From Nitrospirota bacterium (GTDB taxonomy: Bacteria; Nitrospirota; Nitrospiria; JACQBZ01): 35,766 bases of DNA. Below are positions 1,093 through 11,928 of the stretch, in pieces. The position numbers and the translations under genes were made by a program. Where the stretch lies: positions 1 through 35,766 of the forward strand of contig JACQCA010000067.1 in the NCBI GenBank assembly GCA_016201865.1, given 5' to 3'. How positions within the stretch are numbered: position 1 is the first letter of the stretch; each line of letters starts with the position of its first letter. The notes under the pieces are model-generated. The model searched no databases. It had not been told where the DNA came from and worked only from the letters and a program-made list of their open reading frames with translations.

Positions 1093-2328
1093 TTAGAAAT
1101 TGAGCATCAACTCGGCTACGACTTTATTGTCCGTGGTCTCCTTAGTGCCCGTGACCGCCTTCTCTTTCGTGGTGGCCGATCCCTCGACCGCCAGCCGCAG
1201 CCAATCCTGCAAGGGCCGAACAATTCCCACCGTGATCGTGGTTGTCCGATCGTTCTTCGACTTTGAATCGCTGTTCGGATCCACGAAATCATATCGGGCC
1301 AGCGCCGTGAGTTCCGCCGAGGCGATGTACTGTTCGAGCTCGACGTAATAGGCGTCCGCGTTGATGGTATCGGCGCCCGCCGCGGCTGGATCATCGGCGC
1401 TCTGAATATAGCCCCCCTGAATTTCAAACCCGACCGGCAGCACGCCGGCGAATGTCACTCCATACCGCTGGAACCCGATCCGATTCGCCGTCACGAGATC
1501 CGGGTCGGTGTGGTAGACGCCAGAGTAATAAAGCAGCGTGAAGCCCGAGGCCCGGTCGTCTAAGATCTGCTCGAACGCCAGCATGTAATCCTTTTGTGCA
1601 TCGATCTCGCCTTCGGTCCCCTTTCCGGCATCATCCACTCCGTTCGCGACCTGCGCGATCATCCGCGAGCGATCGGGCATGAACGGCAGCTTGAAGATAT
1701 GAGCCAGCTCCAAGCCGCGCTGGTCCTCGCCGAGCGTGAATTTTGCACCTCCTGTCGTCAAGTCGGCCGATCGGATCGCTGGTGTGCTGATTCCTGTAGG
1801 ACGATCAAACCCCGCGAAGCCCACACGGGATAGAGTATGAAACTGACCCGCACGGAGCGTCGTGAAATGTTCCGGGCTGCCCCAGACGCCCGCGATTGAA
1901 GCCACCAGGCTGATATCGTCCTTCGCCTCCCATTCCAGCTCGGCAAACCCGGCATAGTTCTTACCCACCGGCCCACCGTAGAAAAAGGTGGTGTCGTGCC
2001 ACTGGAACTCATTCGTGTCCCGTTTTGTATCGTCCTCAAAATTGGCATAGGCGTATTGCCCGCGCCCGCGCACCGATAGATAATGGCTCACGTTCGCGGC
2101 ATTGATCTCCTTGTCGAACTCGTCCGGCATCCGATAGCCCGCCTGCCGGAATTTATGCCCCAGGGTGTTGAGCCTCGGCGGCGCGGGATAGTGGCACATC
2201 GAGCAGGGCTGATCGTACTTCCGGGCCCAAGCAGGGATCGCCTGGGCTTCACTGATCCAAATAAAATCCATGCCCGCCCAACCGATCAGGAAGATTAACA
2301 GCGACAATGATAAGTGTGCTTGCCTCAT
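1093..2328 (-). CDS. Cyc2-like outer-membrane porin fused to a monoheme cytochrome c
   Basis: This is a 411-residue protein. A signal peptide (residues 1-30, ending EAQA) is followed at once by one heme site, in IPAWARKYDQPCSMCH, and then PRLNTLGHKFRQAGY. The rest is a run of alternating beta strands (for example QYAYANF, AELEW, TLLYYSGVY) ending in a terminal phenylalanine, typical of outer-membrane beta-barrels. The order A-R-x-x-x-x-C-x-x-C-H, P-x-L-N, G-x-x-F, GY matches the N-terminus of Cyc2-type fused cytochrome-porins, which in iron oxidisers move electrons across the outer membrane. The start at 2328 is chosen for its GGAGGGCG ribosome site and signal peptide; the longer frame upstream is not. 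Its place after a tetraheme cytochrome and hydrogenase suggests one electron conduit. The substrate is unknown. Confidence 0.75.
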   Translation of the reverse strand: MRQAHLSLSLLIFLIGWAGMDFIWISEAQAIPAWARKYDQPCSMCHYPAPPRLNTLGHKFRQAGYRMPDEFDKEINAANVSHYLSVRGRGQYAYANFEDDTKRDTNEFQWHDTTFFYGGPVGKNYAGFAELEWEAKDDISLVASIAGVWGSPEHFTTLRAGQFHTLSRVGFAGFDRPTGISTPAIRSADLTTGGAKFTLGEDQRGLELAHIFKLPFMPDRSRMIAQVANGVDDAGKGTEGEIDAQKDYMLAFEQILDDRASGFTLLYYSGVYHTDPDLVTANRIGFQRYGVTFAGVLPVGFEIQGGYIQSADDPAAAGADTINADAYYVELEQYIASAELTALARYDFVDPNSDSKSKNDRTTTITVGIVRPLQDWLRLAVEGSATTKEKAVTGTKETTDNKVVAELMLNF

Positions 2329-2360
2329 CGCGCCCTCCTTTTGTTTGAGAACCGTGCATT

Positions 2361-2840
2361 TTACTTTGGATGATTGATCTGCTCCCACAGCTTCGCATAA
2401 TCGAACCCTTTGAAGGTGGGGCTGTCCGGATTGTGGCAGCTCTTGCAGCTCTTCGGATCCGGCTTTACGATCAGGCCGGCCTTCTTCGCTCCCTCTTTGT
2501 CCTTTTTGGAATGCATTTTAATATAAAGACTCCCCGGACCGTGGCAGGCCTCGCACTGGATACCGACCATTTCGGGCGCTGCCTGTTTGGTTATGCGGTA
2601 CCCGGTGATATGACAGTCCAGGCATTTTGGATCTTTCTGCTGGTCAGGCTTTAAGACCTCAAAGGCCTTGGCATGTCCGCTCTCGGCCCAGATTTTATGT
2701 TGTTTCATATGACAGAGTTTGCATTTGGCCGCGCCCACATGGGTCGCCTCCTCTCCGGCAGCCTTTTGGATAAACCCGATTCCGATCGTCAGTAAGATCA
2801 GGACGGCCAGACTCAACATGATCCGCAGTGTGGTTCGCAT
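2361..2840 (-). CDS. Periplasmic tetraheme cytochrome c (c554-like)
   Basis: This is a 159-residue protein with a signal peptide (hydrophobic residues 7-26) and four c-type heme sites: CKLCH, CLDCH, CEACH and CKSCH. A histidine-rich spacing (MKQHKIWAESGHAKAF) supplies likely distal ligands. The layout resembles the cytochrome c554 family of small multiheme electron carriers. The start has a GGGGAGGAA ribosome site. The gene lies between hypE (19 bases upstream) and the porin-cytochrome gene (32 bases downstream) in the same operon. It is well placed to shuttle electrons in the periplasm between the hydrogenase cytochrome b or quinone pool and the outer-membrane cytochrome; this path is an inference. 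Confidence 0.85.
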   Translation of the reverse strand: MRTTLRIMLSLAVLILLTIGIGFIQKAAGEEATHVGAAKCKLCHMKQHKIWAESGHAKAFEVLKPDQQKDPKCLDCHITGYRITKQAAPEMVGIQCEACHGPGSLYIKMHSKKDKEGAKKAGLIVKPDPKSCKSCHNPDSPTFKGFDYAKLWEQINHPK

Positions 2841-2859: not shown

Positions 2860-3927
2860 TCAGCAGATCCTCGGCAACTGCTCGCCCGACAGCATATCCA
2901 CCACCCGGAAACCGCCGATTCGACTTTTCATGACGACGGTGCCGGCATGATCGGCGACGACCTCGCCGATGACGGCGGCCTCTTTCCCAAGCGGATGCCG
3001 TCGCATCGCGGCCAACACGCGGTCGGACGCTTCGGGGTCGACAAAGGCAATCAGCTTCCCCTCATTTGCGACGTAAAGCGGATCGAGCCCCAGAATCTCG
3101 CAGGCGCCCCTCACCTCTTCGCCGATTTGAATCCGATCTTCCACGATCGAGATTCCGACCTGGGCCTGCTCGGCGATTTCATTTAATACGCTGGCCAGGC
3201 CGCCGCGGGTGGGATCGCGAAGCACATGGATCGCTTTGCTCGCATCGAACATCGTCATCACCAAGTCATTGAGCGCAGCCGTGTCGCTTTCGATCCGGGT
3301 CTCGAACTCCAACCCTTCCCGGACGGACATAATCGCGATGCCATGCACAGCAATCGGCCCGTTGAGGATAATCTTGTCGCCGGCCCTTGCACGCTTCGGA
3401 TGGATCTCGACACCCGGTTCGATCATGCCCACGCCCGATGTGTTGATGAAGATTTTGTCGCCCTTGCCACGGTCCACGACTTTGGTGTCGCCCGTCACGA
3501 GCAAAACGCCGGCCTTTTGGGATGCCGACTGCATCGAGAGGACGACCCGCCACAAATCCTCCATCGGGAATCCCTCTTCGATGATAAACGCGGCCGAGAG
3601 ATAGAGCGGGCGGGCGCCGCACATCGCGAGGTCGTTCACGGTGCCGTTGACCGCAAGCCCGCCGATGTCCCCGCCGGGGAAGACGATCGGGTTCACAACA
3701 TACGAATCCGTGGTGAAGGCCAGCTTGACGCCGTTCAACGAAATGACGGCGCCGTCGTGCAGCGGCTCAAGAAACTCGTTCCGGAACGACGGCAGAAACA
3801 TCTTCCGGATCATCTGCTGCGTGAGCCGTCCCCCGCCGCCGTGAGCCAGAAGCACGCTTTTGTAATCGGTGATCGGAATAGGACACGACAGCCCGGCCGT
3901 TAGACCCACGATCATTTGCTTATCCAT
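2860..3927 (-). CDS. hypE: Hydrogenase maturation protein HypE
   Basis: HypE makes the cyanide ligands of the [NiFe] active-site iron. It dehydrates the thiocarboxamide that HypF places on its C-terminal cysteine and passes the CN group to the HypC-HypD complex. The 355-residue protein has the PurM-like ATP-binding fold, with HGGGGRLTQQMI near the start, TDSYVV, GGDIGGLAVNGTVNDLAM and DPTRGGLAS. It ends in PRIC, the essential terminal cysteine. Length and motifs are normal for the family. It is the last hyp gene of the operon, 28 bases after hypD, and that gap holds a perfect palindrome. Confidence 0.97.
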   Translation of the reverse strand: MDKQMIVGLTAGLSCPIPITDYKSVLLAHGGGGRLTQQMIRKMFLPSFRNEFLEPLHDGAVISLNGVKLAFTTDSYVVNPIVFPGGDIGGLAVNGTVNDLAMCGARPLYLSAAFIIEEGFPMEDLWRVVLSMQSASQKAGVLLVTGDTKVVDRGKGDKIFINTSGVGMIEPGVEIHPKRARAGDKIILNGPIAVHGIAIMSVREGLEFETRIESDTAALNDLVMTMFDASKAIHVLRDPTRGGLASVLNEIAEQAQVGISIVEDRIQIGEEVRGACEILGLDPLYVANEGKLIAFVDPEASDRVLAAMRRHPLGKEAAVIGEVVADHAGTVVMKSRIGGFRVVDMLSGEQLPRIC

Positions 3928-3944
3928 AACCGCTCCCTGTTTTT

Positions 3945-3969
3945 AATCTCAAATTTCAAATTTGAGATT
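3945..3969. repeat. Palindromic repeat, copy 1 (hypD stop / hypD-hypE gap)
   Basis: This is a perfect inverted repeat with 12-base arms (AATCTCAAATTT / AAATTTGAGATT) around one central C. The hypD stop codon lies at its centre, so the last six HypD residues (DLKSQI) are encoded by the repeat and its flank (to 3976). Read in another frame it gives ISNLKFEI, nearly the peptide found in both copies inside hypF. Confidence 0.85.
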
Positions 3970-5059
3970 TGAGATCCACCCTTCCGAAATGATAATACGC
4001 GGCGCAGGCCCCTTCGGATGACACCATCGGAGCGCCGAGCGGAAATTCGGGCGTGCATTGCGTGCCGAATGCCGGACAGTCGTGCGGTTTTTTCAGTCCC
4101 TGAAGCACGAGACCCGCGATGCAGAGGGGAGATTCCCTGGCTTCGATACCGGCCACGTCGAAACGCTTTTCGGCATCGTACTCGGAATAGTCTCTTTTCA
4201 ACCGGTAGCCGCTCATTGGAATCTCGCCGATGCCGCGCCACGTGCGGTCGGTCGGCTCGAACACCTCCGACAAGAGTTGCCGGGCCGGAATATTCCCCTC
4301 GCGCCGCACGGACCGCGCGTACTGGTTCTGAACCTCGGTCCGGCCCTCCTCAAGCTGTTGCACCGTCATATAGATCCCTTGTAGAATGTCCACCGGCTCA
4401 AATCCGGTCACAACGATCGGAACGTGATATCGTCCCGCGATCGGAATATATTCCTCATACCCCATCACGGTGCAGACATGTCCGGCCGCAAGAAACCCCT
4501 GGACCAAATGGGTCTGCGGCGATAGAAGCGCCTCCATCGCGGGCGGAACCAGTACGTGCGAGCAAAGAATCGAAAAGTTTTTCAGGCCGAGCCGCTTCGC
4601 AAGCCAGACCGACATCGCATTGGCCGGAGCCGTCGTCTCAAACCCGACCGCGAAAAAGACGACCTGCTTGTCCGGGTTCTGCTTTGCGATCTTCACCGCG
4701 TCGAGCGGCGAATAGACCATCCGCACGGCGCCCCCCTCCGCTTTCACGGTGAGCAGATCCTTGCTCGATCCGGGCACGCGAAGCATATCGCCGAATGAAG
4801 TGAAAATAACGTCCGGCCGGGACGCGATGGCGATGGCCTTGTCGATCATCGAAAGCGGCGTGACGCAAACCGGACAGCCCGGGCCGTGCACCAGAGTGAT
4901 CTCCTTCGGCAGCAGCGACTCGATCCCGTATTTGACGATCGTATGGGTCTGCCCGCCGCAGATCTCCATGATCGTCCACGGACGCGTGGTGATCGCGTGG
5001 AGCCGCTCGGAATATTTCCGTGCGGTCGCTTCATCCCGATATTCATCAATAAATCGCAT
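3956..5059 (-). CDS. hypD: Hydrogenase maturation protein HypD
   Basis: HypD is the [4Fe-4S] scaffold that, with HypC, assembles the Fe(CN)2CO unit of the [NiFe] active site. The 367-residue protein begins [10 protein letters not shown], the family's usual start. It has [10 protein letters not shown] (Cys34), HGPGCPVC (Cys62, Cys65), GFETTAPA, and a C-terminal cluster-binding set in [18 protein letters not shown] and [10 protein letters not shown] longer frame could start at 5086, but homology and the G-rich ribosome site favour 5059, giving a 14-base overlap with hypC. The final six residues (DLKSQI) come from an inserted palindrome, which may have replaced the original end without touching conserved residues. 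Confidence 0.96.
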
Positions 5060-5354
5060 CGGCCGGCCCCCCGCTTGAAGATTCATAACCTCGGTGATCT
5101 TCGGGCTCCGGGATTTTCAGCTCCTCCAGAGCGCCGTCGATCTGCTCGAACAGTTTCAGCGTCTTCATCGCCTCTTCCTCATCCATTTTGCTGATCGCGA
5201 AGCCCACATGGACGATCACATAATCACCCACCTTCACATCCGGAATCCATTCCAGACAGACCCGTTTCTGGATTCCTCCAAAGCTGGCCCGCCCCATTCG
5301 GGGCTCGACCGAATCCTCGATCTCCAGCACTTTGCCGGGTATTGCAAGACACAT
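5046..5354 (-). CDS. hypC: Hydrogenase assembly chaperone HypC
   Basis: HypC binds iron and the HypD scaffold through its N-terminal cysteine and delivers the Fe(CN)2CO group to the large-subunit precursor. The 102-residue protein starts MCLAIPGKV, the diagnostic motif with the essential Cys2, followed by [15 protein letters not shown], also typical. The ribosome site GGGAGGG sits upstream of this ATG. The longer frame upstream overlaps hypF and is not used. Its C-terminal tail ([19 protein letters not shown]) is longer than in many homologues and overlaps the start of hypD. One base separates it from the hypF stop. Confidence 0.96.
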
Positions 5355-5355
5355 T

Positions 5356-7728
5356 TTACGATCCCTCCCTCGTGTTTGATGATTGGGCCCCAATAAAATC
5401 CGTCATCGCCTTGGCTGCCCGAAGCGCAACAAAGGCCTGCCCCAATGCGATCCCTCCGTCGTTTGGCGGGACCCGTTGGTGCCAGTAAGGGCGAAAGCCG
5501 GCTGCCTCGAGCTCTCGGACGGCGCGTTCGGTCAGATATTTGTTTTGAAAACATCCGCCGGTCAACACGATCCGTTCTTCGCCGGCTCGCTTTGCAACAT
5601 CCACAATAATCCCGGCGAGCGTATTGTGAAATTTTGCCGAGATGATGCCGACTGAAATCTCCCGCTTCAGGTCATCAAGAATCCCCGATATCATAGGCTC
5701 CCAATCAATGTTCAGACAGTCGTCCATCTGAAATTTGAGATTTGAAATTTGAAACGGATACGCCTCATCCATCCGTTCGTCCCCGATCGCGAACTCCAGT
5801 TCCATCGCGGCCTGGCCTTCAAAACTGACGCGCTGACGAAGTCCGACAAGCGAGGCCACGGCATCAAACAATCGTCCCGCGCTCGAGGTCTTCGGCGAAT
5901 TCAATCCTCCGGCCAGCATCATCCGAAGCGCCGCCCGTTCGGCAGGCGCGAAGGCTTGTGTCGTCGGCAAGCCCGCACGATCAAACAGGCGGTCTCCGAG
6001 GATTTCATACAGCAGACCGACGGCGGTCCGCCTCGGTTCCTTGACGGCGGCCGCGCCGCCCGGCAGCCGGAACCGCCGAAACGAAGCGACACGCCGAAAA
6101 CCGGACGCATCCGTCTTCAAAAATTCTCCTCCCCAGATTGTTCCATCCGGGCCATAGCCGGTCCCGTCCCATGAAACACCCAGGACCGGTCCTTCGATCT
6201 CGTTCTCGGCCATGCAGGATGCCACATGAGCATAATGATGTTGAACCGCGATGAGAGGTACGCCCTGATCCTTGGCATATTGTGTCGAGAGGTAGTCCGG
6301 ATGCAGATCGCAAGCGATCCGTTCCGGTTGAGCGTTATACAAGGTTTGAAAGCTCGCGATCACCTTACGGAAGGCATTGAAAGCTTCCGGTGTCTCCAGG
6401 TCCCCGATATGCTGGCTGATGAAAATATTGTTTCCGGCCGTCAATGCCACGGTGTTCTTCAGATGTCCGCCGACCGCCAGCACCGATGGGGCGGCTCGAC
6501 TGAGCTCGCCGAAGTCCGGTCCCCTGAGATGAACGGGAAGAGGCGCATAGCCGCGGGCGCGGCGCAAGACCAACTCCCGCCCCATCATGATTCTCACGAC
6601 CGAGTCATCCACGTGCCGGATGATGGGGCGGTCGTGAATGAGAAACAGATCCGCAATACCGCCAAGCCGCTCGACCGCCTCCTGCTCATCCGTGCAGATC
6701 GGTTCGTCCGAATCATTTCCGCTCGTCGCCACGACCGGGAAACTTAGTTCGTTCATCAAAACGTGGTGCAGCGGCGTGTAGGGAAGCATGACGCCGAGGT
6801 AAGGATTGCGGGGGGCGACGGAGGGGGCGATTTGCAATTTCAAATTTGAGATCTCAAATTTTCGACGCAGCAGAACAATGGGCGATTCAGGAGAGAGAAG
6901 CAGCCGTTCTTCCAGTTCAGAGACTTCGCAGCAGGCCTTGACCGATTCGAGGGATGGAACCATCAGCGCGAACGGTTTCTCTTCACGATGTTTGCGCTCC
7001 CGCATTCGGGTCACGGCTTCCTCATTACGAGCATCCGCGATCAAATGAAATCCCCCCAGGCCTTTGACCGCGACAATCTTTCCGGCACGGATCGCGGCCG
7101 CCGCCCCGACCAATGCCTCGTGATGTTTGGACAGAAGACGTCCCGCCTCATCCCACAACTCCAGATGGGGCCCGCAGACCGGACAGGCGTTCGGCTGTGC
7201 ATGGAATCGTCGGTCGAGCGGGTTCTCGTACTCCTCCCGACAGGCCTCGCACATCTCAAATTTCTTCATCGTCGTGTTGCTGCGGTCGTAAGGGAGCGAT
7301 TCGATGATCGTGAAGCGCGGCCCGCAGTTCGTGCAGTTCGTAAAGGGGTAGCGATAGCGACGATTCGCCGGATCGAACAGCTCCCTCAAACAGTCCGGAC
7401 AGGCGGCGATGTCCGGAAGCACGAGGGCGGTCGGCGGGCCGTCGCCGTTGCTGTGGCGGATCTCAAAGCCGGAGAATCCGACGGGGTCGAGAAACGAAAA
7501 CTCAAGACTCTGGATGAAGGAGCGGGGCGGTTTTTCTTTTTCGATGCGGAGGAGAAAGGCGTCCAGATGGGGCTTGACGCCCTCCGCCTCGATGAAGACG
7601 CCTTGGGAGGAATTCAAGATCCAGCCCGGCAAACCCATCTCGGTCGCCAGTCGATAGATAAACGGGCGGAAGCCGACTCCCTGCACGGCCCCTCGAACCG
7701 TGATCTGAACTCGTTGGACGTCGACCAT
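5356..7728 (-). CDS. hypF: Carbamoyltransferase HypF
   Basis: HypF uses carbamoyl phosphate and ATP to carbamoylate the C-terminal cysteine of HypE, the first step toward the CN ligands. The 790-residue protein has the full order: acylphosphatase domain (QITVRGAVQGVGFRPF, residues 8-23), two zinc-finger repeats (CPDC...CTNC and CEAC...CPVC, about 108-190), a YrdC-like domain (about 210-390), and a Kae1-like C-terminal domain with QHHYAHVASCMAE and SWDGTGYGPDGT. Two stretches do not belong to the family: KFEISNLKLQI near residue 290 and FQISNLKFQM near residue 660. Both are translations of the palindromic repeat also found at hypD. They fall in what look like surface loops, and the reading frame stays open. 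The start at 7728 has GGGGCGGG upstream and overlaps no gene. Confidence 0.96.
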   Translation of the reverse strand: MVDVQRVQITVRGAVQGVGFRPFIYRLATEMGLPGWILNSSQGVFIEAEGVKPHLDAFLLRIEKEKPPRSFIQSLEFSFLDPVGFSGFEIRHSNGDGPPTALVLPDIAACPDCLRELFDPANRRYRYPFTNCTNCGPRFTIIESLPYDRSNTTMKKFEMCEACREEYENPLDRRFHAQPNACPVCGPHLELWDEAGRLLSKHHEALVGAAAAIRAGKIVAVKGLGGFHLIADARNEEAVTRMRERKHREEKPFALMVPSLESVKACCEVSELEERLLLSPESPIVLLRRKFEISNLKLQIAPSVAPRNPYLGVMLPYTPLHHVLMNELSFPVVATSGNDSDEPICTDEQEAVERLGGIADLFLIHDRPIIRHVDDSVVRIMMGRELVLRRARGYAPLPVHLRGPDFGELSRAAPSVLAVGGHLKNTVALTAGNNIFISQHIGDLETPEAFNAFRKVIASFQTLYNAQPERIACDLHPDYLSTQYAKDQGVPLIAVQHHYAHVASCMAENEIEGPVLGVSWDGTGYGPDGTIWGGEFLKTDASGFRRVASFRRFRLPGGAAAVKEPRRTAVGLLYEILGDRLFDRAGLPTTQAFAPAERAALRMMLAGGLNSPKTSSAGRLFDAVASLVGLRQRVSFEGQAAMELEFAIGDERMDEAYPFQISNLKFQMDDCLNIDWEPMISGILDDLKREISVGIISAKFHNTLAGIIVDVAKRAGEERIVLTGGCFQNKYLTERAVRELEAAGFRPYWHQRVPPNDGGIALGQAFVALRAAKAMTDFIGAQSSNTREGS
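5726..5755. repeat. Palindromic repeat, copy 2 (inside hypF)
   Basis: An AT-rich segment in GC-rich hypF, on the plus strand GAAATTTGAGATTTGAAATT and flank. It is read in hypF as FQISNLKFQM, adding about ten residues without breaking the frame. Confidence 0.8.
6831..6862. repeat. Palindromic repeat, copy 3 (inside hypF)
   Basis: Plus strand CAATTTCAAATTTGAGATCT and flank. It is read in hypF as KFEISNLKLQI, in the same translation frame as copy 2. It contains the partly self-complementary core AAATTTGAGATCTCAAATTT. Confidence 0.8.
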
Positions 7729-7737
7729 GACCCGCCC

Positions 7738-7983
7738 CTATTCCTCAAGATCCACTTCCACCACACTCAGCTCATTTCCAGGCACCGGTTCGATCTCAAG
7801 CTTTGCCCCGTCCAGTGCGGTTCCCTGACCGGCCAATTCGAAACAGAATGTTAGAGACTCCGGCGCGATGCCGACACGGTCGCCGATTCTCAGCTTCACC
7901 GACTTTACGCCCCGGAGTTCGCCGGCCGGAAGATGTTGTCGCACTGATTCGACGATGCTCCGGGCGATCGAGAATTCATGCAT
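7738..7983 (-). CDS. hypA: HypA-like nickel chaperone lacking the zinc-binding lobe
   Basis: HypA normally delivers nickel to the hydrogenase large subunit with HypB. It has an N-terminal nickel site (MHE) and a zinc loop with two CxxC motifs, in about 113 residues. This protein has the correct start (MHEFSIARSIVESV) and core (KLRIGDRVGIAPESLTFCFE, LEIEPVPG) but jumps from VPG directly to NELSVVEVDLEE. It is only 81 residues and contains no CxxC. About 30 residues are missing in frame, exactly the zinc ribbon. The ATG at 7983 has a GGGAGA site and overlaps the protease gene by 8 bases. It could be a functional minimal form, a decayed gene, or a local assembly error. Confidence 0.85.
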   Translation of the reverse strand: MHEFSIARSIVESVRQHLPAGELRGVKSVKLRIGDRVGIAPESLTFCFELAGQGTALDGAKLEIEPVPGNELSVVEVDLEE

Positions 7984-8479
7984 CGCGGGTCTCCCTTTGG
8001 ATCGGTTCCACGCCCAAGGCCCGGAGTTCCCCGACCGCGGCCTCGACCACGCGGGGAAGAGCATCCCGAAGCATGGGTGTGAGATCGAGGCCGACTTCCC
8101 GGACCTCAAGCGGCTGAACGCCGAGGATCCGTGTAAAAGGGAGCTTCCCCAGAAACCGAGCCGTCGACAGCAGCTCAGCGATGCCGATCTCATGGGCCGA
8201 GAAGAAGGGCCCCCGACGCGCGGACAGGTCTTCCGGGGCAAGTCGGTAGATCGCCCCCGGAGATTCCTTTCCGGTAACAGCATCAATGATCAGCAGATGC
8301 TCCGCCCCTTCGAATTCCGGCAGACACCGCAAACCCGCCACGCCCGCCTCGACGATCCGGACGCGGTCCGGGAAGTCGTAGGTCTCGGCCAAGGCCCGAA
8401 CGGCCCAGACACCGACGCCGTCATCCTGCATGAGCGTGTTGCCGACACCCAAGACGACGATGGAAGGGGCGCTCGTCAT
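7976..8479 (-). CDS. hyaD: Hydrogenase maturation endopeptidase (HyaD/HupD family)
   Basis: This nickel-dependent protease trims the C-terminal extension from the hydrogenase large subunit once the metal centre is built. The 167-residue protein has the family's start, IVVLGVGNTLMQDDGVGVW (residues 7-25), with the conserved GVGN and the metal-binding Asp/Glu region. It also has EAGVAG, IIDAV and SAHEIGIAELL (histidine ligand). Its start (8479) overlaps the stop of the cytochrome b gene by 4 bases (ATGA). Its substrate is clearly the neighbouring large subunit, whose C-terminus carries the cleavable tail. Confidence 0.93.
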   Translation of the reverse strand: MTSAPSIVVLGVGNTLMQDDGVGVWAVRALAETYDFPDRVRIVEAGVAGLRCLPEFEGAEHLLIIDAVTGKESPGAIYRLAPEDLSARRGPFFSAHEIGIAELLSTARFLGKLPFTRILGVQPLEVREVGLDLTPMLRDALPRVVEAAVGELRALGVEPIQRETRDA

Positions 8480-9147
8480 TTTCCGGCGCCTCCCCCGTGC
8501 TCCTGGACCTTGTACTTGTAGCCGGTGATCATCGAGCGGACCGTATGGTCGCGCCGGATCCAGGTCGTCATCGTCGCCATGTAGACGTGAATCGCCACCG
8601 TGATGAGGAAGACCCACATCGCAAGGAAATGCCAGATGCGGGTGTAAGACTCCCCGCCCAGAAGGTCGCGCACCCAGAGAAAGCGGTCCGGCGCCGCGAT
8701 GATGCCGAACACCTTCCCTCGGTAAAGGGCGAACCCGGTCAGGGTCATAAAGAGAACCAGGAAGACCCAGAAGAGATAGGTCAGGGCCTGCATCGGATTA
8801 TACCGACGGTACTCCTTGTGCGTTTCTTTTATAAAAAGATAGTACGGCAGAATGTCCGTGATGTTTTTAAGATTCCGTAGGATCCCGAAATCCCGCCAGT
8901 CGGCGTCGAAGGCCGAATTGAAGGCCAGATAGATTCTCACCACAAGCCCCAGGATGAAGACGTAGGCCGACGTGAAATGGGCGAACCGCATCCAGGCCAT
9001 CACGGCCAGACCGCCCGGTTCGCCTCCCGGTAAAAACGGCCAGTGGATATAAAATCCCGTGACGGTCAGCACGGTCATCGCCAAGACACGGACCCAGTGG
9101 TCGATCCGATAGGTCAGGTTCCATTCATACACGTATTCTCGTTTCAT
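8476..9147 (-). CDS. hyaC: Ni/Fe-hydrogenase b-type cytochrome subunit
   Basis: This is a 223-residue integral membrane diheme cytochrome b that anchors the periplasmic hydrogenase and passes electrons to the quinone pool. Four membrane helices are visible (about residues 18-38, 58-78, 122-145 and 170-192). Conserved histidines lie in RIDHWVRVLAM, MRFAHFTSAYVF, RIWHFLAMWVF and VAIHVYMATM, the expected heme ligands. Length and order match HyaC/HupC. It starts 7 bases after the large-subunit stop, with a TGAGG site. Confidence 0.95.
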   Translation of the reverse strand: MKREYVYEWNLTYRIDHWVRVLAMTVLTVTGFYIHWPFLPGGEPGGLAVMAWMRFAHFTSAYVFILGLVVRIYLAFNSAFDADWRDFGILRNLKNITDILPYYLFIKETHKEYRRYNPMQALTYLFWVFLVLFMTLTGFALYRGKVFGIIAAPDRFLWVRDLLGGESYTRIWHFLAMWVFLITVAIHVYMATMTTWIRRDHTVRSMITGYKYKVQEHGGGAGK

Positions 9148-9154
9148 GATTGCC

Positions 9155-10744
9155 TCACGAGATTCGAACTTTGTAGACCGCGTTGCTTTCCGGGTCGATC
9201 ACATGGACGGTGCAGGCCAGACAGGGGTCGAAGGAATGGGCCACGCGCAGGATTTCAAGCGGCCGCTTTGCATCGGCCACCGGTGTCCCGATGAGAGCCT
9301 GTTCAATCGGTCCTTTGACCCCGTTGGCATCCCTCGGCGAGATGTTCCAGCAGGTCGGCGTGATCACTTGGTAGTTGGCCAGCCGTGTTCCCTCGATCTG
9401 ATTCCAGTGGCCCAGCGCGCCGCGAGGGGCTTCCCAAAGACCCACGCCTTGTGCTCGGGCCGGCAGCGTGTACGGAGTGAAGGTATCTTTCTTCTCTGTC
9501 CTGATGTTCTCCAAGATCTCGTCGGACCACTGCACCATGGCATCGGCGATGATTTTCGTCTCCAATGCACGGGCCGCGATCCGGCCGACGACGGAAAAGA
9601 GGACCTCCGGATGGCCGCCGACGCCGAGCGCTCCAAGTGTCTGGTCGATCAGCGGGCGGGCCGCCGGGTGCCCCTTCGCGTACGCAACGACCATTCGAGC
9701 CAAGGCGCCCACCTCCATCGGTCGGCCCCCATAACGGGGAGCCTTGGCCCAGGTGTACTTTTTCTCCACATCCCATTGCGTAAACTCCGGCTCGGTCACG
9801 CCCATGCTCGGATGCGTCGGCTTGCCGTCCTTATACCAGCCGTGGGTCACATCCTCCGTAATAGTCGCCGGCTCAATCTCAAGCGCTTTGAGCCGACCGT
9901 CCAGGACGGTTCCGCTCGGCATAAGCCGGTTCTTGGTGTCAAAACTCGGGTCGTCAAAGACCCCCCAGGCCAGGAAGTTGCGCGGACCGACGCCGATCTT
10001 TGCGTAGTCGAGGTAATACGGCGCAATCGCCAAGACATCCGGAATATAAACATGCTCGACCCAATGCCGGATTTCTTCCAGTCGCGGTTTCAGGTTGGCC
10101 ATGTCATCCACAGTTGGGATGTGTACCGATCCGCCGGCCGGCGTCGTCATCGTCATCGGCATCCGCCCGCCGAAGATGGCCGAGATGTGCGAGGCCTGGG
10201 CCTGTTTGTCGAGCGCTTCGAGATAATGGGCCACGGCCAGCAGGTTCAGTTCGGGGGGCAGCTTATAGGCGGGATGTCCCCAATAGGCGTTGGCGAACGG
10301 ACCGAGCTGGCCGCCTTCCACGGACTTTCGCAGTCTCGCCTGAACATCCTTTAAATAATGATCCTTCGTCTCGGCCTTGATCGCCGAGACGACATCCACG
10401 AAATCGAGCGCGGCCAGGTGATAGAACCATAAAATATGAGAATGAAGAAATTGGGCGCCCTCGACCATGTTGCGCACGAGCCGACCGGTATCGGGGGCAT
10501 GGATGCCGGTCGCGCTTTCAAGGCAGAGGGCCGCAGCATGGGCATGGGAGGTAGGGCAGACGCCGCAGATCCGCTGTGTGATGTGATAGGCATCGCGGGG
10601 ATCGCGACCTTTCAGCACGATCTCGAATCCGCGGAAGAGCGTCCCCGACGCCCAGGCATCCTTGACTTTTCCACCTTCAACCTCCACTTCGAGCGCCAGA
10701 TGTCCCTCGATGCGGGTGATCGGATCGATAATAATGCGGCTCAT
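9155..10744 (-). CDS. hupL: [NiFe] hydrogenase large subunit, group 1 (membrane-bound, uptake type)
   Basis: This subunit carries the nickel-iron centre that splits H2. The 529-residue protein has the N-terminal L1 motif RICGVCPTSH (Cys60, Cys63) and the C-terminal L2 motif DPCLACTVH (Cys508, Cys511, His514). A 15-residue tail (VIDPESNAVYKVRIS) follows, to be removed by the maturation protease after His514. SRIIIDPITRIEGHL at the start and the overall pattern fit group 1 respiratory uptake enzymes. The start has a GGAGAGGAA site and overlaps the small-subunit stop by 4 bases. It has no signal of its own and should be co-exported with the Tat-targeted small subunit. Confidence 0.97.
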   Translation of the reverse strand: MSRIIIDPITRIEGHLALEVEVEGGKVKDAWASGTLFRGFEIVLKGRDPRDAYHITQRICGVCPTSHAHAAALCLESATGIHAPDTGRLVRNMVEGAQFLHSHILWFYHLAALDFVDVVSAIKAETKDHYLKDVQARLRKSVEGGQLGPFANAYWGHPAYKLPPELNLLAVAHYLEALDKQAQASHISAIFGGRMPMTMTTPAGGSVHIPTVDDMANLKPRLEEIRHWVEHVYIPDVLAIAPYYLDYAKIGVGPRNFLAWGVFDDPSFDTKNRLMPSGTVLDGRLKALEIEPATITEDVTHGWYKDGKPTHPSMGVTEPEFTQWDVEKKYTWAKAPRYGGRPMEVGALARMVVAYAKGHPAARPLIDQTLGALGVGGHPEVLFSVVGRIAARALETKIIADAMVQWSDEILENIRTEKKDTFTPYTLPARAQGVGLWEAPRGALGHWNQIEGTRLANYQVITPTCWNISPRDANGVKGPIEQALIGTPVADAKRPLEILRVAHSFDPCLACTVHVIDPESNAVYKVRIS

Positions 10745-11928
10745 TTTCTTTCCTCTCCTTCTTCGCGCGGCTCGCTTTTAAACCGCCCCTTCATGGCCGT
10801 ACCGATGGCATGGGCCGCAATCCCGACTGCCGTGGCGACGCCGGCCGCGATCCCGATGGTATCGGCGCCCGTTTCCACACCCTCCAGACCGGGAACTTTC
10901 ACATTCGGAAGCCTCTCGTAGAAACCGGCGAACTTGTCGACCCATCCGTGCTCGGCGCAGCCGATGCAGGGAGCGCCCGCGCCGATGCACCAACTGACCC
11001 GATCGTTGTACCGCATCTTCGAACAGTTGGCGTAAGTCTCCGGCCCCTTGCAGCCGACCTTGTAAAGACAGTAACCCCGTTCCTCTTCATTGGTTCCGAA
11101 TCGCTCGACGAAGCGGCCCGCATCGAAATGCGCACGGCGTTCGCATTGATCATGGATCGTCTGCCCGTAAAAGATTTTCGGCCGACCAAAGCCGTCCATC
11201 TCCGGCACCCGGTCGGTCATCAGGAAGTCCACGATGGTGGCGACCAGAATCCCTTCATTGACGGGACAGAGATCCAGATTGATGCAGTTGACGCCGAGCG
11301 CCTCGCGGACTCCCTTGAGCCCGGCCGGGTTAGGATCACCGGCAGGCACGCCGCCCCACGTGGCGCAGCTTCCGACGGCGATGACCGCCTTGGCCTTCGC
11401 TGCAAACTCTTTTCCGATGTCGATCATCTCGCGTCGTGCGATCATGCCGTATCCCTTTTTTGTCGGGATCGCTCCTTCGATGATCAGAATATAGCCTCCG
11501 CGATCCAATGCCTGATGGAGAATCTCCTCGGCCTGCGCACCGGCCGCCGCCATGATTGTCTCGTTGTAATCGAGGCTCAGGGTCTCGAGAATCAGCTGCG
11601 CGGCATTGGGATAGTTGGCCTTGATCAGCGCCTCGGTGCAGCCGGTATCCGAGGCGAAGTTCAACCAGACGACCGAAGGTCGTTTGGCGGCCGCCGCAAC
11701 CAAGGCTTCAGCAATTCGGGGAATGCCTATCGAGCCGAGGCCGAGAAAAGCCGCCGCCGCGCCGCAAACCTTGAGAAAGTCTCGCCGGTTTACTCCAGAG
11801 ATGACCGACGGTTCATCCGCCTGGGTTTTGGGGTCCTGAATGACCGGCAATCGGATGCCCTTCCGATGACTCATCCCTGAAATCAGAGGCGGTTCAACCT
11901 CCTGGATGACGGGTAATTCGATCTGCAT
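10741..11928 (-). CDS. hupS: [NiFe] hydrogenase small subunit, Tat-exported, with unusual proximal cluster ligand
   Basis: This FeS subunit takes electrons from the active site to the cytochrome b. The 395-residue protein has a Tat signal (NRRDFLKVCGAAAAFLGL, residues 47-64), FeS ligands and a C-terminal membrane anchor (about 355-378). Distal cluster ligands are His259, Cys262, Cys287 and Cys293; medial ligands are Cys302, Cys321 and Cys324. At the proximal cluster, Cys97, Cys188 and Cys221 are present, but the first cysteine of the usual C-T-G-C motif is Asp94 (ASDTGC). The 46 residues before the twin arginine are unusually long and hold a degenerate duplication (LPVIQ...ISG twice). The ATG at 11928 is supported by GGAGGGCG. 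It is the first gene of the operon, about 60 bases after a sigma54 promoter. Confidence 0.95.
   Translation of the reverse strand: MQIELPVIQEVEPPLISGMSHRKGIRLPVIQDPKTQADEPSVISGVNRRDFLKVCGAAAAFLGLGSIGIPRIAEALVAAAAKRPSVVWLNFASDTGCTEALIKANYPNAAQLILETLSLDYNETIMAAAGAQAEEILHQALDRGGYILIIEGAIPTKKGYGMIARREMIDIGKEFAAKAKAVIAVGSCATWGGVPAGDPNPAGLKGVREALGVNCINLDLCPVNEGILVATIVDFLMTDRVPEMDGFGRPKIFYGQTIHDQCERRAHFDAGRFVERFGTNEEERGYCLYKVGCKGPETYANCSKMRYNDRVSWCIGAGAPCIGCAEHGWVDKFAGFYERLPNVKVPGLEGVETGADTIGIAAGVATAVGIAAHAIGTAMKGRFKSEPREEGEERK

Follow-up and report, generated by a model that had tools for sequence, protein, structure and literature searches.

A membrane-bound [NiFe] uptake hydrogenase operon of a groundwater-type Nitrospirota bacterium appears to include the genes of a tetraheme c-type cytochrome and a Cyc2-like monoheme porin, which together would form an outer-membrane electron conduit in a two-protein minimal form. 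This hydrogenase-linked conduit, with H2 outward as the main direction, is the reading that we regard as moderately probable. The genes lie on the minus strand of the window, i.e., the whole stretch of DNA analyzed (35,766 nucleotides), which is an entire contig of a draft genome of 2.47 Mb and 95% completeness (G000:C85). At this locus, the closest relative with a name is L107, a MAG from groundwater designated "Nitrospirae bacterium". In the proposed pathway, H2 would be oxidized in the periplasm by the membrane-bound, periplasm-facing hydrogenase, and the electrons would be delivered to the quinone pool via the cytochrome b subunit or handed directly to the tetraheme cytochrome. This cytochrome would ferry electrons through the periplasm to the porin's single heme, and the porin would exchange them with a soluble external partner, e.g., Fe(III)/Fe(II) or a shuttle, entering the barrel. 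Heme loading, and electron flow between hydrogenase, tetraheme cytochrome, and porin, are presumed in this scheme.

The hydrogenase genes and the cytochromes that follow them

The hydrogenase, its cytochrome b, and the hyp genes occupy positions 2860–11928. Large and small subunits, a Tat signal, and a cytochrome b subunit, all of them present, characterize the enzyme as a membrane-bound [NiFe] uptake hydrogenase. The hyaA-like small subunit (10741–11928; TIGR00391, 365 bits) carries the Tat signal (RRDFLK), a hydrophobic C-terminal helix, and the proximal-cluster motif TGCTE, and its closest solved chains among PDB sequences are Desulfovibrio-type periplasmic NiFe enzymes. The six-cysteine proximal cluster of the O2-tolerant type is absent, as SDTGCTE and GSCATWGG display glycines at the positions of the two extra cysteines in O2-tolerant hydrogenases. 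The hyaB-like large subunit (9155–10744; PF00374, E = 4e-176; NF033181, 617.9 bits against a cut-off of 600) is followed by the b-type cytochrome subunit, a membrane anchor expected to reduce quinone (8476–9147; TIGR02125, 181.8 bits, cut-off 121.5), and by a hydrogenase maturation protease (7976–8479, start inferred within ORF 7976–8617; TIGR00072, 132.7 bits). Next comes a hypA-like gene (7738–7983) encoding 81 amino acids, which covers positions 1–68 of 116 in TIGR00100. Alignment with relatives reveals that about 35 residues including the zinc-binding cysteines are missing in frame with both flanks retained, which points to either a natural zinc-less form or an assembly error. The series is completed by hypF (5356–7728; named from sequence, 77–79% to hypF of the relatives G004 and G001, whose gene order is the same), hypC (5046–5354; start at MCLAIPG inferred, 88% to G004), hypD (3956–5086; 92% to G004), and hypE (2860–3927; AIRS and AIRS_C domains, 90% to G004), hypC and hypD being taken from the ORF list. 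A hydrogenase 82% identical to that of the window occurs in G040, a genome from another family of the same phylum (L095, 6891–8886), and reflects either transfer or mis-binning.

From hyaA (11928) to hypE (2860) and onward to the tetraheme cytochrome, the porin, a small membrane protein, and an exported protein, all genes share the minus strand, so that the sequence-only reading had rightly placed both cytochrome genes directly behind hypE. The end of hypE and the start of the tetraheme gene are separated by 19 bp, with GGGGAGG inside the gap; 32 bp separate tetraheme cytochrome and porin, and 31 bp separate porin and small membrane protein. Shine-Dalgarno-like sites precede both the tetraheme and the porin genes. 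A strong terminator with a separate promoter between hypE and the cytochromes had been named as evidence that would speak against the sequence-only reading; the minus strand between 1093 and 3927 yielded no terminator-like site. Judged by this spacing, the hydrogenase, tetraheme, and porin genes appear to constitute one operon and would be co-transcribed. The small integral membrane protein (585–1061; 158 amino acids) has a sub-threshold UbiA match only. Its gene overlaps that of the putative exported protein (148–588; start inferred), whose homologs in G001 (79%) and G004 (74%) lie upstream of, and adjoin, a different Cyc2-like gene. Because of this arrangement, contig C71 of the same genome, with a Cyc2-like and a diheme gene near its end, may continue the locus beyond positions 1–130, where the sequence at the end of the contig resembles the beginning of a transposase of the IS3 type (MRSQRTFSSEFKRQVVE; family called by eye).

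The tetraheme cytochrome (2361–2840; 159 amino acids) is predicted to be periplasmic and is c554-like, with four CXXCH motifs and a match to PF13435 (Cytochrome_C554; E = 3.9e-14, 53.8 bits against a cut-off of 20.8). Further conserved histidines (48/49 region, 56, 110, and 157) would suffice for bis-histidine ligation of every heme. A PDB search revealed resemblance to cytochrome c554 (1bvb, E = 5e-10) and to part of 6i5b, the surface cytochrome OcwA. The protein is conserved in three relatives, and no relatives were found on viral contigs. Assignment as the nitrifier c554/CycA was rejected, given a score far below the cut-off of NF043010 and the lack of such a gene context.

The Cyc2-like porin

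The porin gene (1093–2328) encodes a Cyc2-like monoheme cytochrome-porin of 411 amino acids with the heme motif AIPAWARKYDQPCSMCHYPAPPRLN, an assignment based on an AlphaFold (AF2) model, Foldseek, and an ortholog. Within the ORF, which extends over 1093–2388, the likely start is the ATG at 2328, preceded by AAAAGGAGGG. The lone CXXCH (residues 42–46) follows a signal-peptide-like hydrophobic N-terminus, the signal peptide being called by eye and from helix 2–24 of the model, and thus occupies an N-terminal cytochrome domain as in Cyc2. Built with 22 aligned homologs, the model (mean pLDDT 82.8) comprises 16 strands and places the CXXCH in the N-terminal helical part. Foldseek searches with it retrieved 16-strand porins including OprP/OprO (2o4v, 4rjw), the templates named for Cyc2 (PMC8406198), so that the predicted fold corresponds to the OprP/OprO-like outer-membrane barrel of these proteins. 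A structure model of a barrel with its heme had been suggested as a check on the sequence-only reading, and a 16-strand predicted barrel with an N-terminal monoheme domain is what emerged. With 411 residues, the protein also exceeds the lower limit of 365 amino acids applied to Cyc2, and PXL stands four residues past the CXXCH (CSMCHYPAPPRLN). No matches to Pfam or NCBIfam were obtained for the porin, and a search of PDB sequences with the porin profile returned noise only.

A single position departs from Cyc2. The published signature preceding CXXCH reads AXPXFAR[Q/K][T/Y] (PMC8406198), and the corresponding segment of the porin is AIPAWARKY, with tryptophan replacing phenylalanine and the remaining positions and the spacing in agreement. 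The match to Cyc2 asserted earlier thus holds at all other positions and fails at this one; the motif had moreover been written as A-R-x4-C-x-x-C-H and is in fact A-R-x5-C-x-x-C-H (ARKYDQPCSMCH), although the P-x-L-N behind it had been read correctly. The tryptophan is a trait of most of the porin's clade, members such as L108, L118, L119, and L120 having phenylalanine. Across the 22 homologs, conservation within the family peaks in the heme domain, with A30, P32, R36, K37, Y38, C42, C45, H46, P51, L53, and N54 invariant. The modeled porin would therefore appear Cyc2-like in build, yet the strict screen behind the published Cyc2 tree would exclude it on account of the tryptophan. Two other Cyc2-like genes in the same genome, on contigs C71 and C30, satisfy the strict motif. 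Three Chlorobium sequences (L174, L179, and L180) were discarded as Cyc2 references since they contain PVRN or PARN in place of PXL.

In a tree of 80 heme-porin sequences, none of them a certified Cyc2, the porin pairs with that of L107 (support 1.0) within a 22-member clade (0.998) spanning Nitrospirota, Omnitrophota, Gemmatimonadota, and others. Grouping with unrelated heme porins had been named as the outcome that would tell against the sequence-only reading; in this tree, the protein falls within a heme-porin clade and not with heme-less porins. Among the 80 named related heme-porin loci, many of which have short flanks, a hydrogenase lies beside the porin in L107 only. Relatives in Nitrospirota, Gemmatimonadota, and Ignavibacteria adjoin monoheme cytochrome c genes together with Rieske and/or cytochrome b genes, and in the porin's own clade the neighboring genes are those of cytochrome c and the bc complex. 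At L110 (3610–11191, plus strand), OmcA-like, MtrA-like, and MtrB/PioB genes are followed by a UspA gene and then by the gene of a Cyc2-like porin, downstream of which lie genes for cytochrome c, a Rieske protein, and cytochrome b, such that two kinds of conduit lie side by side. Owing to these partners (cytochrome c, Rieske, cytochrome b, and OmcA-MtrA-MtrB), the family overall has the appearance of an electron-transfer porin, with a hydrogenase link that looks derived.

Conservation of the locus and exchange of the outer-membrane module

In G004, a genome of another genus of the same family that contains L107, porin (81%) and tetraheme cytochrome (80%) lie downstream of hypE in an order matching that of the window, the full order being hyaB-cytB-hyaD-hypA-F-C-D-E-tetraheme-two cNMP-binding proteins-porin-UbiA. 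Comparison of the window with this other-genus pair yields dN/dS values of 0.13 for the porin and 0.12 for the tetraheme cytochrome, which indicates purifying selection. Since the order is retained in another genus under purifying selection, the placement of both genes behind hypE is not due to chance.

The orthologous locus of G001, which is recognizable from the Lon and NaPRTase genes shared upstream, has the order hyaA...hypE-barrel-nonaheme-dodecaheme-tetraheme-cNMP-MenA-like UbiA-11-heme/cytochrome b561 fusion (barrel ORF, 479 amino acids; nonaheme, 262 amino acids; 12-heme ORF, 941 amino acids; tetraheme cytochrome, 70%). In G003, hypE-barrel-nonaheme extends to a contig end, and tetraheme-UbiA-11-heme opens another contig, which is consistent with the order in G001. 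In its architecture, the barrel-nonaheme-dodecaheme trio represents the MtrCAB/Omb-Oma-Omc type of porin-cytochrome conduit. It forms a conserved unit in at least seven further Nitrospirota genomes, and in none of those seven does the nonaheme share a contig with hydrogenase matches; the genome of the window has neither the nonaheme nor the 11-heme protein. By gene content, the hydrogenase operon thus appears to carry one of two non-homologous outer-membrane modules, the Cyc2-like porin or the multiheme trio, always accompanied by the tetraheme cytochrome: in each of the four genomes of the family in which the locus was read, this position is taken by a conduit, and the tetraheme cytochrome is kept throughout. 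The exchange is our main ground for placing an outer-membrane conduit in the operon and for regarding the tasks of porin and trio as comparable, and the presence of the trio in the hydrogenase operons of G001 and G003 constitutes the strongest evidence for the conduit. Porin and trio are presumably functionally equivalent.

Several other genes recur in these loci. The fusion of an 11-heme cytochrome with cytochrome b561 (L191, 10531–12747, minus strand; L094, 1283–3298, plus strand; L095, 389–2404, plus strand) is situated near the uptake hydrogenase in G001 and, as a 40% copy, upstream of the 82% identical hydrogenase in G040; it is a candidate quinol dehydrogenase in the relatives. A MenA-like prenyltransferase lies in the hydrogenase-conduit locus of three relatives (L191, 12542–13459, minus strand; L094, 373–1290, plus strand; L046, 1–821, minus strand), suggesting a dedicated quinone. 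Proteins of 171–183 amino acids with a single cNMP-binding domain and no match to a DNA-binding domain (L046, 2117–3174, and L191, 13474–14025, both minus strand) sit between the tetraheme cytochrome and the porin or UbiA.

Direction of electron flow and alternative readings

The respiratory inventory of the genome consisted of four family searches. No heme-copper oxidase was matched, and two NuoG proteins were the only molybdopterin oxidoreductases; few other known acceptors for H2 electrons are hence apparent. Four bd-oxidase-like proteins (L207, L208, L209, and L210) match PF01654 over its first 240 positions only, and several adjoin a monoheme cytochrome c. Matches to sulfite/nitrite reductase domains (NIR_SIR) were confined to ORFs of 765 and 1026 amino acids with two domains each, unlike dsrAB. 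An MtrB/PioB barrel (PF11854), considered as another conduit in the taxonomic order of the window, matched neither in the genome nor in that order.

Electron flow from H2 outward is the most likely direction of the conduit, as the donor enzyme of the operon is an uptake hydrogenase and relatives carry the multiheme trio. Against the outward reading stands the established role of Cyc2 proteins in inward Fe(II) oxidation, and no outward-working Cyc2 was found in the open-licence literature searched. Also against it, the porin occurs in this hydrogenase operon in only two genomes, and the genome of the window lacks the 11-heme/cytochrome b fusion that may act as quinol dehydrogenase in relatives. 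The porin might instead oxidize Fe(II), Mn(II), or another soluble donor in the manner of Cyc2, with the tetraheme cytochrome feeding the respiratory chain and the hydrogenase serving as a second lithotrophic entry or as a source of low-potential electrons for carbon fixation. The tested Cyc2 proteins, one per cluster, oxidize Fe(II) (PMC8406198), Ghiorsea combines the use of H2 and Fe(II) (PMC10734525), the cytochrome c and bc-complex genes beside porin relatives fit an inward path, and the four bd-like oxidases are possible terminal acceptors. An inward conduit is nevertheless unlikely, though worth serious consideration: the MtrCAB-like trio of the sister hydrogenase operons has an architecture best known for outward transfer, if able to work both ways, the Cyc2-like genes on C71 and C30 with the strict motif could handle Fe(II) oxidation, and a heme-copper oxidase match is lacking in the genome.

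The outward conduit also has to be weighed against the absence of any conduit. The bd-like proteins could burn H2 via quinone and O2 without one, the cytochrome b subunit (TIGR02125) being the hydrogenase's own quinone link, and the cytochromes would then be co-located through shared regulation with no direct electron flow. Such an arrangement agrees with the finding that porin orthologs in other families have no hydrogenase nearby. It is rather improbable in view of a conduit that holds this position throughout the four family genomes in two non-homologous forms, with the tetraheme cytochrome invariably kept. That the porin merely conducts a solute, e.g., nickel or iron for the hydrogenase, with a structural or sensing heme domain, would suit its proximity to hydrogenase maturation genes and a fold shared with solute porins, but the high conservation of the heme domain among the 22 homologs and the electron carriers encoded alongside make this highly improbable. 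The path between H2 and the outside put forward in the sequence-only reading has accordingly gained from the predicted Cyc2-like barrel, the operon spacing, the conservation in a second genus, and the exchange with the trio; it has lost the residue of the heme motif and its assertion that no comparable operon had been described.

A more specific proposal, that a Cyc2-type monoheme porin constitutes an electron outlet for H2 oxidation, interchangeable with a multiheme conduit in the same hydrogenase operon, is put forward only tentatively. If it is true, Cyc2-like porins are not solely inward iron oxidases. Cyc2-like genes are widely used markers of iron oxidation, and a Cyc2-like porin locked in a hydrogenase operon offers a concrete test case for whether such porins serve other donors or outward electrons. 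The locus further suggests that groundwater Nitrospirota may carry, as one genetic package, the connection of H2 oxidation to partners outside the cell, here in a genome in which neither a heme-copper oxidase nor a molybdenum respiratory reductase was found.

Comparison with known systems

With group 1 quinone-linked uptake hydrogenases, the locus shares small and large subunits, cytochrome b, protease, and hyp genes, and it differs from them in the added tetraheme cytochrome and Cyc2-like porin and in a HypA without the zinc-binding segment. The porin has in common with Cyc2 of Mariprofundus PV-1 and A. ferrooxidans and with Leptospirillum Cyt572 a signal peptide, an N-terminal CXXCH, PXL, a 16-strand barrel (predicted for the window), a length of about 400 amino acids, and periplasmic cytochrome partners. 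For Cyc2, all three cases examined biochemically proved to be Fe(II) oxidases (PMC8406198), whereas Fe(II) oxidation is only putative for the porin's clade, and the protein of the window differs further in its tryptophan, its encoding with a hydrogenase, and its tetraheme partner. MtrCAB, MtoAB, and OmbB-OmaB-OmcB share with it the proposed role and the combination of a periplasmic cytochrome with an outer-membrane barrel, and G001 and G003 carry such a trio; in contrast to these systems, the porin contains one heme of its own and a modeled 16-strand barrel, and no MtrB/PioB homolog was matched in the taxonomic order of the window. Ca. Manganitrophus with its Cyc2 and PCC systems (PMC9040806), for which a hydrogenase is not mentioned, likewise represents Nitrospirota with Cyc2-like porins, and a full-length relative of the porin in a Manganitrophaceae MAG (L129) has a monoheme cytochrome c as its neighbor and not a hydrogenase. 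In Ghiorsea, H2 and Fe(II) are both used, and the excerpt of PMC10734525 describes no link of the two in an operon.

No report of a Cyc2-like porin encoded in the operon of an uptake hydrogenase was found in the open-licence literature. The hydrogenase-conduit operon as such has a precedent in extEFG of Geobacter sulfurreducens, which is transcribed as one unit together with a [NiFe] hydrogenase of Hox-like type (PMC6148476), and the earlier statement that no such operon had been described was too strong. Both loci combine an outer-membrane conduit and [NiFe] hydrogenase genes in one unit. In Geobacter, however, the hydrogenase has been likened to the bidirectional Hox enzyme and the conduit is multiheme, whereas the window encodes a membrane-bound uptake enzyme together with a Cyc2-like porin.
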